Below, piece by piece: positions 11,194 to 37,213 of a stretch of 40,824 bases of DNA. The notes under the pieces are model-generated. The model was not told where the DNA came from. It did not search any database and saw nothing but the letters and a program-made list of their open reading frames with translations. The position numbers were made by a program, and so were the translations under genes. Origin of the DNA: Natronolimnohabitans innermongolicus JCM 12255 (GTDB lineage: Archaea; Halobacteriota; Halobacteria; Halobacteriales; Natrialbaceae); NCBI RefSeq assembly GCF_000337215.1, contig NZ_AOHZ01000080.1, positions 1 to 40,824 on the forward strand. The letters run 5' to 3'. Position 1 is the stretch's first letter. Every line of letters starts with the position of its first letter.

Positions 11194-11682
11194 ATGGACA
11201 CGACGCGGCGTCGACTCTGTGCGACCGGCGCGACGTTTGCAGTCGCCGCCCTCGCCGGCTGCGCGGATCGTTCGAGCGACACCGACGAGTGGGCGTGGTC
11301 CGGCTCGCTTCCCGTCGACTCGGTCGTTCAGCACCACGACCCCTCCTGTGGCTGCTGTAGCGAGTACGTCGACTACCTCGAGACGAACGGCCTCGACGTC
11401 GACGTTCGGGAGACCGACGATCTCGACGCAGTCAAAGCCGATCTGGGCGTTCCCGACGACGCCGAGAGCTGTCACACCCTCGAAGTCGGCGACTATCTCG
11501 TCGAGGGCCACGTCCCGCTCGAGGCGTTCGAGGAACTGTTCGCGGACGAACCCGACGTTTCCGGAATCGCGGCGCCGGGGATGCCCGAGCACTCACCCGG
11601 AATGGGGCCGCCGGGCGACGGCCCGCTATCGATCTACGCGTTCGATTCGTCCGGCGAGGTTTTCGAGTTTACCGACGTCTGA
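11194..11682 (+). CDS. DUF411 family lipoprotein, probable copper-related
   Basis: A 162-residue protein with a twin-Arg start (TTRRRLCATGATFAVAALAGC); the lipobox is Leu20-Ala-Gly-Cys23, so it is likely exported by Tat and lipid-anchored. The mature part is a DUF411 domain: HHDPSCGCCSEYVDYLETNG with Cys52, Cys54 and Cys55, then ESCHTLEVGDYLVEGHVPLE with Cys93 and His94, and a Met/Pro/Gly-rich end (PGMPEHSPGMGPPG) that could also bind Cu(I). DUF411 proteins are often found with copper-handling genes, but no copper transporter is beside it here. Metal binding is therefore a family-level inference. Confidence 0.88.
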   Translation: MDTTRRRLCATGATFAVAALAGCADRSSDTDEWAWSGSLPVDSVVQHHDPSCGCCSEYVDYLETNGLDVDVRETDDLDAVKADLGVPDDAESCHTLEVGDYLVEGHVPLEAFEELFADEPDVSGIAAPGMPEHSPGMGPPGDGPLSIYAFDSSGEVFEFTDV

Positions 11683-13653: not shown

Positions 13654-13857
13654 CCGTTGTCAACACTCCCCAGACCGACAGCGGCACACCGAGTTGCCTC
13701 TCACCCAGACGCGCCGGCGTCCGCTCCCGAATCGCTCGTCCCCCACCGAGCGCTCCACGCCGGCGTGTTTTCCTTCGCATCCGCATCCACTCGAGTGAAC
13801 CACCGGTTCCGAGCGCCAATACGTCGCTCGTTCGCCCGGAATTATCGGATTATATTA

Positions 13858-13873
13858 GACAGTTATATCTGTC
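13858..13873 (+). promoter_or_regulatory. TATA box inside an inverted repeat before the TenA pair
   Basis: GACAG-TTATAT-CTGTC. The centre TTATAT lies 30-35 nt before the ATG at 13898 and fits a TATA box; the flanking 5-bp arms are perfectly inverted. A regulator bound here would block TBP. Thiamin-responsive regulation (for example by an archaeal ThiR-type repressor) is plausible from the genes downstream but is inference. Confidence 0.5.
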
Positions 13874-13897: not shown

Positions 13898-14569
13898 ATG
13901 GCGTTCAGCGATCGGCTCCTCGAGGAGGGAGCCCACGTCTGGGAGGCACAGAAAGCACACCCCTTCGTCCGGGAACTCGCCGCGGGGACGTTAGACGAGG
14001 CGGCGTTTCGCCACTGGGTGAAACAGGATTACCGGTACCTGCTCGATTACGCCCGACTGTTCTCGATCGCGGGGACGAAAGCCCGCGACGAGGCGACGAT
14101 GACCCACCTGCTCGGCGTCGCCCACGAGGTGTTAGATCACGAGATGGACCTCCATCGGGAGTTCGCCGCCGACTACGGACTCTCGCCGGCGGACCTCGAG
14201 TCGGTCGAGAAGGCGCCGACCTGCCACGCCTACACGAACTTTCTGGTTCGAACGGCCTACGAAGGGTCGCTCGCCGAAATCGCGGCGGCGCTGTACCCCT
14301 GCATGCAGGGCTATCTCGACGTCGCCGAGCACATGGCCGACCTGGCCGACGACCTCGACGAGAACCCGTACGCGCCCTTCATCGAGATGTACACCGGCGA
14401 GGAGTTCCGCGAGGCAACGGCGTGGTGCCGGGAGTTCGTCGACGACTGCGGTGAGCGATTCCCCGGCGAACACGACGCCATGCGCGAGGCGTTCCTGACG
14501 AGCGCCAAACTCGAGTATCGGTTCTGGGAGATGGCCTACACGCTCGAGGGGTGGGAGCTGGAGCGATGA
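13898..14569 (+). CDS. tenA: TenA family aminopyrimidine aminohydrolase (thiaminase II), Cys type
   Basis: A 223-residue, all-helical TenA protein. Catalytic positions match the Bacillus enzyme numbering closely: Asp44 and Tyr47 in KQDYRYLLDY, Cys135 in ALYPCMQGY, and a C-terminal Glu in KLEYRFWEMAY. Members with this Cys hydrolyse the amino group of 4-amino-5-aminomethyl-2-methylpyrimidine to give HMP, salvaging the pyrimidine of degraded thiamin; some also cleave thiamin. The length is typical and the protein is cytosolic. Its stop overlaps the start of the next gene (ATGA at 14566-14569), so both paralogues are made together. The promoter carries an inverted repeat. Confidence 0.93.
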   Translation: MAFSDRLLEEGAHVWEAQKAHPFVRELAAGTLDEAAFRHWVKQDYRYLLDYARLFSIAGTKARDEATMTHLLGVAHEVLDHEMDLHREFAADYGLSPADLESVEKAPTCHAYTNFLVRTAYEGSLAEIAAALYPCMQGYLDVAEHMADLADDLDENPYAPFIEMYTGEEFREATAWCREFVDDCGERFPGEHDAMREAFLTSAKLEYRFWEMAYTLEGWELER

Positions 14570-15351
14570 CCGGAACCGACCGCACCGACGACACCGGGGT
14601 CGCCGCGTCCTACGCGGCATACGCGACTGACGCCGAGGCCGCCGGCCGCGAACCGCGGTTCACCGACTGGCTGCGCGAGCGGTCTCAACCGGCATGGACG
14701 GATGCAGTCGAGCACCCGTTCACGCGAGAGTTGGGCGCCGGCACGCTCGAGGAGGACGCCTTCGCGGAGTACCTCGTTCAGGACTACGCGTTCGTGAACG
14801 ACCTCGTCGGCGTCTTCGGGCACGCGGTCGGGCAGGCCCCGGAGATGGCCGCCAAGCGGCCGCTCGTCGAGTTCCTCGATACCATCACGGACGACGAAGA
14901 CGACTACTTCGAGCGTTCGTTCGACGCGCTCGACGTGCCGGAATCGCGTCGAACCGACCCCGAGCTCGCCGACCCGACCGCCGCCTTCGTCGACCTGCTG
15001 GGACGTGCTGGACTCGAGGGCGGCTACGCCGAGACGCTGGCCGTGCTCGTCCCCGCCGAGTGGATCTACGAGGAGTGGGCGACCGCCGTCGTCGAGGCGC
15101 ACGCCGATCCCGACGCCGACGGGCCGCCGAGCGCGGGCGCCGACCTGCCGTTCTACTACGCCGAGTGGGTCGACCTCCACGCGACCGAGGACTTCACCGA
15201 GTTCGTCAGCTGGCTTCGCGGCCAGCTCGACGCCGTCGGTCCCGACTGCTCGCCGCGGCGCCAGCGACGCGTCGAGACGCTGTTCCGGCGAACGGTGGCC
15301 CTCGAGGTCGCGTTCTTCGACGCGGTCTCCGAGTCGAGCGGCGGTGAGTAA
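14566..15351 (+). CDS. TenA family paralogue lacking the active-site Cys (TenA_E-like)
   Basis: A 261-residue paralogue of the upstream gene with an extra N-terminal segment of about 30 residues (TGTDRTDDTGVAASYAAYA). TenA core landmarks are kept: HPFTRELGAGTLEEDAFAEY, VQDYAFVND and the helix carrying the active site. Where the partner has Pro-Cys-Met, this protein has Pro-Ala164-Glu165-Trp (VLVPAEWIYEEW). Cys-less TenA proteins are called TenA_E after an active-site Glu, and the plant form removes the formyl and amino groups of oxidised thiamin pyrimidines in succession. Translation is coupled to tenA. The likely job is the step before or alongside tenA in HMP salvage; the exact reaction is inference. 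Confidence 0.85.
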   Translation: MTGTDRTDDTGVAASYAAYATDAEAAGREPRFTDWLRERSQPAWTDAVEHPFTRELGAGTLEEDAFAEYLVQDYAFVNDLVGVFGHAVGQAPEMAAKRPLVEFLDTITDDEDDYFERSFDALDVPESRRTDPELADPTAAFVDLLGRAGLEGGYAETLAVLVPAEWIYEEWATAVVEAHADPDADGPPSAGADLPFYYAEWVDLHATEDFTEFVSWLRGQLDAVGPDCSPRRQRRVETLFRRTVALEVAFFDAVSESSGGE

Positions 15352-35993: not shown

Positions 35994-36052
35994 AGTATAA
36001 TTATAACTGACGCCTGTATCTCGATTCTATCACGATCCATGTTCAAATAATA

Positions 36053-36889
36053 TCATACGTCCTCACTAAAGTCTTCGTTCCAACTCGACACACCTGTTGG
36101 AAGGTCAATAGAAACAGGCCCAGAACCAAGAGAGATGTCCTCAATCACGTTAAACTCACCAGATCCAAGTCTTCCATAAGTCTGTTCGTAGAGTCCTTTC
36201 ACTTGACCAGTTGCATCTTTTTGTCGTCGAATAGCACACTGAATGGATCCCCACGTTTTGGTTGGATGTGTACCGTCCTCCCAGCCCGGGTAGGGTTCTG
36301 CTACGTCAATTTTAGCAACTACAGCATTATCGAATTCTGGCCCCGTAATAGGTTCGTTTATGATTTCTGTTGATGCTTCTTCTTCCATTGGGTCCGCTGG
36401 CCAACCAACCTCTGTCCATTCATGAACAACTCGTATATTAATGCCGTCATCAATTGGGCCGAATATATTATCTTCGAATGCAAGTACAACGATATCCTCT
36501 GGACCTAGCGAGTACGTGAATTCAAATGCGTTTTCTAATTCCCAGTATAATGTTATGGTATAGTGATTTTCACCACTAGCCCGACTACCAACGGTGAAGT
36601 TAAATTGTGCTGATGATTTATCATAGCGGTTAGGGGACACTACAGTTTCGTTACCATTCGATACCGATTCTGGATCTATAGGGCGTTCAACATTATCATG
36701 AATATAATCAATGTCATTTTCATCCATCATTCGTAGTGCCTTTTCAGTCTCCCCCTGCCGGAGCAATTTCTCTGTCCTGTTTACTATCTCTTCAGAGGGT
36801 GATGTGTTCGTCGCTGCACCGACTTGCGACAGATTTGCTATAGCTAGTCCTGTACCTATTCCTTTCAATACTGATCTTCTATACCTCAT
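36053..36889 (-). CDS. Tat-exported protein of unknown function in an AT-rich islet
   Basis: A 278-residue protein starting MRYRRSVLKGIGTGLAIANL, a Tat signal with the twin-Arg YRRSVLKG and cleavage likely after VGAA. The mature protein is acidic and largely beta, with SAQFNFTVGSRASGENHYTI, LYWELENAFEFTYSLG, VVHEWTEVGWPADPMEEE and SGPVSIDLPTGVSSWNEDF. I do not recognise a domain. The gene uses AAT, ATT, TTT and AGA codons freely, in clear contrast to its neighbours, which marks recent acquisition. No mobility gene is intact nearby. Its function cannot be inferred. Confidence 0.8.
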   Translation of the reverse strand: MRYRRSVLKGIGTGLAIANLSQVGAATNTSPSEEIVNRTEKLLRQGETEKALRMMDENDIDYIHDNVERPIDPESVSNGNETVVSPNRYDKSSAQFNFTVGSRASGENHYTITLYWELENAFEFTYSLGPEDIVVLAFEDNIFGPIDDGINIRVVHEWTEVGWPADPMEEEASTEIINEPITGPEFDNAVVAKIDVAEPYPGWEDGTHPTKTWGSIQCAIRRQKDATGQVKGLYEQTYGRLGSGEFNVIEDISLGSGPVSIDLPTGVSSWNEDFSEDV

Positions 36890-37213
36890 ATGCTAATCAG
36901 TTAATATTATCTATATTAAATCCTTCGTTCAATATATTATTTGTCGAATCACAATCTCATAGTGTATATTATGCGAACCTAACTAAAATGAAGTCTATGT
37001 ACAAGCTTCAAGCGTATTAACGCTGGCAGAAATATCCCAAACAAATTTTATGTTGGAAACGAATCTTGGAGCATGCCCCCAATATCGACGGATGGGCACA
37101 AGACACAAACTCGCGCTGGAAACCGAGCACGGTGGCCAATGACCACGCTTGGGACCAGAGATGTTTAGATATGGTCGATCATAAAACAGAGACCGACGAA
37201 GAAGAATTACAGG
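36890..37213. other. AT-rich intergenic DNA, no gene recognised
   Basis: This continues the low-GC islet. The minus frame at 36995-37375 is rich in Cys, His and Trp and does not look like a real protein. The left end should contain the promoter of the exported protein gene. Confidence 0.5.

Follow-up and report, generated by a model that had tools for sequence, protein, structure and literature searches.

An overlapping pair of TenA genes in the thiamin regulon of haloarchaea combines a cysteine-type TenA with a cysteine-less TenA of a separate clade

The reason why some organisms keep both the cysteine-type TenA_C and the cysteine-less TenA_E has been called unknown, and TenA_E has already been reported in haloarchaea (PMC10470507). 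The two types, their joint presence in some organisms and the occurrence of TenA_E in Halobacteria are already published. TenA_C converts aminopyrimidine to HMP, and the plant TenA_E is credited, in the passages of PMC5635689 that cite Zallot 2014, with the deformylation of formyl-aminopyrimidine (FAMP) as well as this next step. Two overlapping TenA genes in a 40,824 nucleotide stretch of the genome of Natronolimnohabitans innermongolicus JCM 12255 (contig NZ_AOHZ01000080.1, hereafter the window) raise the question of whether the two steps are divided between two proteins in this haloarchaeon. The genes and their overlap are located as follows.

13898..14569, plus strand: TenA1, a TenA_C (aminopyrimidine aminohydrolase / thiaminase II) of 223 aa; TIGR04306, 168.9 bits
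14566..15351, plus strand: TenA2, a Cys-less TenA with the TenA_E glutamate, 261 aa; Pfam, 88.1 bits
14566..14569, plus strand: ATGA, shared by the stop of TenA1 and the start of TenA2, read in the sequence

The preliminary description of the locus as two overlapping TenA paralogues on the same strand was confirmed by the open reading frames and by matches of both proteins to Pfam TENA_THI-4 (171.8 bits for TenA1, 88.1 bits for TenA2, cut-off 22). The NCBIfam thiaminase II model (TIGR04306, cut-off 130 bits) was passed by TenA1 and failed by TenA2 (81.7 bits). The two proteins were 30% identical to each other and were the only products of PF03070 genes in the 4.59-Mb host genome. The pair is preceded by an Elp3 gene, upstream of which a DUF411 protein (PF04214) is encoded at 11194-11682.

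The overlap consists of the TenA2 start codon ATG (14566-14568) and the TenA1 stop codon TGA (14567-14569). The TenA2 start was taken as the ATG at 14566, giving 261 aa, and the mechanical list of reading frames begins at a GTG at 14551. In 111 of 113 adjacent haloarchaeal pairs either ATGA (n = 67) or GTGA (n = 44) was found at the TenA_C stop in frame with TenA2, so the overlap exceeds chance, and its conservation backs both the start at 14566 and translational coupling. Read from sequence, the overlap suggests such coupling and implies no stoichiometry; the earlier expectation that the two proteins are made in equal amounts was not upheld, as coupling fixes no ratio between them. A GAGG within 20 nt was present in 107 of the 113 pairs, and since these bases also encode conserved C-terminal residues of TenA1, the Shine-Dalgarno argument was set aside.

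Active-site residues were compared in an alignment of 116 haloarchaeal TenA_C, 125 haloarchaeal TenA2 and reference proteins, including Arabidopsis 2f2g, whose letters were checked against the PDB entry, and P. furiosus 1rtw. TenA1 contained Asp44, Tyr47, Tyr112, Cys135, Tyr165 and Glu206, all of them invariant in the 116 TenA_C sequences, and Tyr165 and Glu206 aligned with Tyr163 and Glu205 of B. subtilis TenA. TenA1 thereby carries the residues that define TenA_C (the equivalents of Cys135, Asp44, Tyr112 and Glu205) and agrees with the characterised cysteine enzyme at all positions checked, which supports a role in a two-step pathway. It resembles B. subtilis TenA (TIGR04306) in these residues and in fold, at approximately 30% identity, and differs from it in its genetic setting: its gene shares an ATGA with that of a Cys-less TenA and follows a haloarchaeal promoter motif of the thiamin type.

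In TenA2 the Cys site reads Pro163-Ala164-Glu165, and two sets of codons mark the divergence of this protein.

15055..15060, plus strand: TenA2 codons for Ala164-Glu165; the Ala is at the Cys135 position and the Glu corresponds to P. furiosus Glu129 / Arabidopsis Glu140
15178..15180, plus strand: TenA2 codon for His205, at the position occupied by Tyr163 in B. subtilis and by Trp in the TenA_E of plants and P. furiosus

Glu129 of P. furiosus and Glu140 of Arabidopsis come directly after the Cys position (PMC5623701; PMC5635689). Asp73, Glu165, Tyr168, His205 and Glu247 of TenA2 were invariant in all 125 haloarchaeal members. The Cys position was occupied by Ala (n = 112) or Val (n = 13), the Tyr47 position by Phe (n = 122) or Val (n = 3), and the Tyr112 position by Phe (n = 103), Leu (n = 17) or Met (n = 5) and never by Tyr; the host protein has Phe141 there. 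The histidine at the Tyr163 position was also found in the Streptococcus and alphaproteobacterial members, whereas all 116 TenA_C had Tyr. The TenA2 residue set as a whole was common to S. pneumoniae and most of the alphaproteobacterial relatives. The claims that Asp44, Tyr47 and Cys135 are kept in TenA1 and that Pro-Ala-Glu stands at the Cys site of TenA2 agree with the alignment, and the active sites are complementary in the sense that a TenA_C is joined to a Cys-less, Glu-bearing TenA.

By the broad definition, TenA2 is a TenA_E: the Cys is missing (Ala164) and Glu165 and a second glutamate, Glu247, are present, a combination found in 125/125. With the plant (At3g16990, 2f2g) and P. furiosus (PF1337, 1rtw) proteins it shares, besides Glu165, the Phe at the Tyr47 position, Tyr168, Glu247 and the fold. 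It lacks the pocket of these two, in which Tyr occupies the Tyr112 position and Trp the Tyr163 position; TenA2 has Phe, Leu or Met in the former and His in the latter, and moreover Phe for Trp at the position of TenA1 Trp210.

AlphaFold2 models of both proteins were obtained with high confidence (pLDDT 92.7 for TenA1 and 92.2 for TenA2). The TenA1 model matched cysteine-type TenA best (2gm8, Z 30.9; 1yaf of B. subtilis, Z 30.6). The solved structure nearest to the TenA2 model was S. pneumoniae spr0628 (1z72, 2a6b; Z 29.7, rmsd 1.2 Å over 209 residues), which agrees with TenA2 in the Ala-Glu, the Phe, the His and the Glu and belongs to its clade; its deposited name is 'putative transcriptional regulator', and it differs in being bacterial and 32% identical to TenA2. 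When 78 proteins were placed in a maximum-likelihood tree, the haloarchaeal TenA2 together with the Streptococcus and alphaproteobacterial proteins were split from all TenA_C with support of 100/98. The plant and P. furiosus TenA_E grouped with the TenA2 clade in the best tree, with support of 79/76 and long branches. We know of no assayed member of the TenA2 clade. A recent duplication as origin of the pair was ruled out; TenA1 and TenA2 sit in different deep clades, and the pair therefore combines two ancient subfamilies. The analogy to plant TenA_E drawn in the preliminary description holds for the missing Cys and for Glu165 and breaks down at two active-site positions and at the well-supported clade of its own: judged by its residues, TenA2 is no simple plant-type TenA_E but a member of a separate clade.

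The distribution of the pair was surveyed in 391 Halobacteria genomes with a TenA2 profile, a Pfam TenA search and, for genomes still open after these, a TenA_C profile. TenA2 was detected in 131 genomes and TenA_C was present in every one of them. The co-occurrence in other genomes that the preliminary description called for was thereby observed, with TenA_C directly upstream of TenA2 on the same strand in 116 genomes and the two genes unlinked in the other 15. Because linkage cannot account for the latter, these 15 weigh most. A TenA of any type occurred in 261 of the 391 genomes, 130 of which had no TenA2, so that TenA_C stands alone in about half of the TenA-bearing genomes. Haloarchaeal genomes are related and hence non-independent, and these counts carry no formal probability. 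Among 190 genomes of Alphaproteobacteria, a second TenA match was found in 9 of 10 genomes with TenA2, compared with any match in 43 of the 180 others (p = 4e-5), and on a Ruegeria plasmid both TenA genes were located in one thiamin operon with an ABC transporter.

The TenA_C of the adjacent pairs (L090-L219) divided cleanly into two types, with 62-100% or 38-47% identity to the host TenA1, and each type was accompanied by TenA2 relatives of its own. For 109 of 111 pairs, the closest non-redundant TenA2 relative was paired with a TenA_C of the matching type. In three loci (L217, L218 and L219) and in genomes G224 and G399, TenA2 was split or truncated beside an intact TenA_C, which suggests repeated loss of TenA2 and not of TenA_C.

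Upstream of the host pair a sequence resembling the promoter or operator of a thiamin regulon was identified.

13840..13873, plus strand: AATTATCGGATTATATTAGACAGTTATATCTGTC, a motif like a thiamin-regulon promoter or operator, with its end 24 nt upstream of the TenA1 start

A 34-bp position weight matrix was learned from 89 non-redundant haloarchaeal regions upstream of TenA_C. When the window was scanned with it, a single one of 81,582 positions scored 20 or more, namely 13840-13873 with 31.5. In the regions upstream of thiC, which lay outside the training set, the motif adjoined the thiC start in 20 of 20 genomes, host included (23.6-36.0 on the best strand), and only 8 of 2288 control segments, each 700 bp long and drawn from these loci, scored 25 or above. 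A pattern search of the host genome without mismatches returned the thiC and tenA sites only; the pattern was built from both of these sites and the result is partly circular, a circularity from which the matrix test on thiC is free. The motif also preceded most of the TenA_C-only genes tested, and at least 7 of the 15 unlinked TenA2 genes had a motif of their own (score 20.8 or more). No TPP riboswitch was found upstream of the pair with Rfam at E up to 1, and the only match, sub-threshold and elsewhere, was to sR40.

In 27 loci a ThiR-like (HTH-ThiN) gene stood beside the pair, nearly always divergently. In 59 loci (L090-L219) a gene for a sodium:solute symporter (PF00474, about 505 aa) followed 3' of TenA2, overlapping or abutting the TenA2 stop in most of them; it is a candidate importer of thiamin pyrimidines. 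An Nramp-like transporter gene (PF01566) was seen near TenA2 in 15 loci (L160, L167, L176, L180 and others), in 3 of which TenA2 is unlinked from TenA_C. In the window, neither a ThiR nor a symporter gene adjoined the host pair. The host genome encodes ThiC and ThiR-like HTH-ThiN proteins that are 64% and 41% identical to operon-linked ThiR (L270, L271), and its sodium:solute symporters reach no more than 24-28% identity with those of the operons.

The motif common to tenA1 and thiC and the ThiR-like and symporter neighbours in relatives place the pair in the thiamin regulon. Both TenA types are members of it, and the evidence from the motif is independent of homology. The combination typical of a ThiR-type regulon, an operator-like motif common to thiC and a ThiN-domain regulator, is found in the host genome, and the ThiR protein would be the one that binds the 34-bp motif. 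The archaeal ThiR regulon, as cited for Rodionov 2017, would be similar in the motif common to thiC and in the ThiN-domain regulator, whose gene in many genomes points away from the pair. ThiC was about as frequent in genomes with the pair (56%) as in those with TenA_C alone (58%; p = 0.80) or without any TenA (62%). The pair as a substitute for lost de novo thiamin synthesis was thereby ruled out; ThiC presence being unrelated to the pair, salvage supplements synthesis and does not replace it.

The role of the pair may be depicted as follows: TenA1 and TenA2 would form a two-gene operon for the salvage of thiamin pyrimidines under the thiamin regulator of the cell. TenA2 would deformylate FAMP to aminopyrimidine, TenA1 would hydrolyse the aminomethyl-pyrimidine to HMP, and HMP would enter thiamin synthesis via ThiD-type kinases. 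The two proteins would probably act in sequence as separate homo-oligomeric enzymes, with the overlap coupling their translation. We infer the substrates, the order of the steps and the oligomeric state, and we consider this assignment of the two steps under joint thiamin control somewhat more probable than all its rivals taken together. The one-sided dependence, with TenA_C in every TenA2 genome and often by itself elsewhere, fits TenA2 feeding TenA_C. A division of the two steps between two TenA proteins, as first proposed, is the most economical reading of the complementary sites, the presence of TenA_C in 131/131 TenA2 genomes and the motif common to thiC; the part of that proposal which placed both in one mixed complex found no support.

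Such an obligate complex, with the active sites of TenA1 and TenA2 side by side, would accord with the conserved gene order, the 4-nt overlap and the co-diversification of the two genes (109/111 pairs), although the last is expected from linkage alone. TenA proteins are homo-oligomers, no natural TenA_C-TenA_E fusion occurred among the 113 adjacent haloarchaeal pairs, and the genes are unlinked in 15 genomes; the unlinked TenA2 genes with their own motif show that co-translation with TenA_C is not required, and we regard the complex as very improbable. Slightly less remote, though still improbable, is that TenA2 carries out both hydrolyses by itself, with TenA1 as a second enzyme that is redundant or faster, in line with the amido- and aminohydrolase activities credited to plant-type TenA_E (PMC5635689). 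Were TenA2 self-sufficient, it would be odd that TenA_C accompanies it in all 131 haloarchaeal genomes, while roughly half of the genomes with any TenA have only TenA_C. The loss of Cys135 and of the hydroxyls that Tyr47 and Tyr112 provide in the Cys enzyme could mean that TenA2 has no catalytic activity left and serves as a regulatory or structural paralogue. We give this hardly any credence, as the five polar residues invariant in 125/125 indicate catalytic constraint and the same set is found in Streptococcus and most alphaproteobacterial members.

A more serious competitor, possible but clearly less probable than the favoured assignment, is that TenA2 is a thiamin-salvage hydrolase acting mainly on another degraded or oxidised pyrimidine and not on FAMP, with TenA1 alone performing the aminopyrimidine step. 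The pocket of TenA2 (D73, E165, Y168, H205, E247 and Phe/Leu/Met) matches neither the Cys type nor the plant and P. furiosus Glu type, and its clade is separate; this pocket is the weak point of the FAMP assignment. A roseobacter reported to contain TenA_C and TenA_E grew on aminopyrimidine and not on FAMP (PMC10470507), possibly owing to uptake or to a TenA_E of another type. Regulation in common fits any thiamin-related reaction and not FAMP hydrolysis alone. Against a different substrate, the defining glutamate of TenA_E is retained in 125/125, and, by the title of 2qcx, crystals of the Y112F variant of B. subtilis TenA contained bound formyl aminomethyl pyrimidine, so that Phe at this position is compatible with FAMP. 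Tentatively, and no more probably than this competitor, TenA2 might represent a third TenA type, marked by Ala-Glu, His at Tyr163 and Phe at Tyr112, which would span haloarchaea, streptococci and alphaproteobacteria and, together with TenA_C, perform a distinct repair of thiamin pyrimidines by a reaction unlike that of the Cys enzyme or of plant TenA_E.

The two-step division of labour between TenA2 and TenA1 is directly testable, given the one-sided dependence and the thiamin-type motif on both genes. The name 'TenA_E', when defined by the missing Cys, groups together at least two active sites, and FAMP use predicted from this label, as in ocean surveys, may be unsafe. The constant order of TenA_C before TenA_E, the one-sided dependence, the thiC-type motif and the TenA2 pocket were absent from the literature examined, with the original TenA_E and ThiR papers outside it, and parts may be known. 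Elsewhere in the window, an AT-rich island was observed at 36001-37000 (41% GC against about 65% around it), containing a reading frame of 278 aa on the minus strand (36053-36889).
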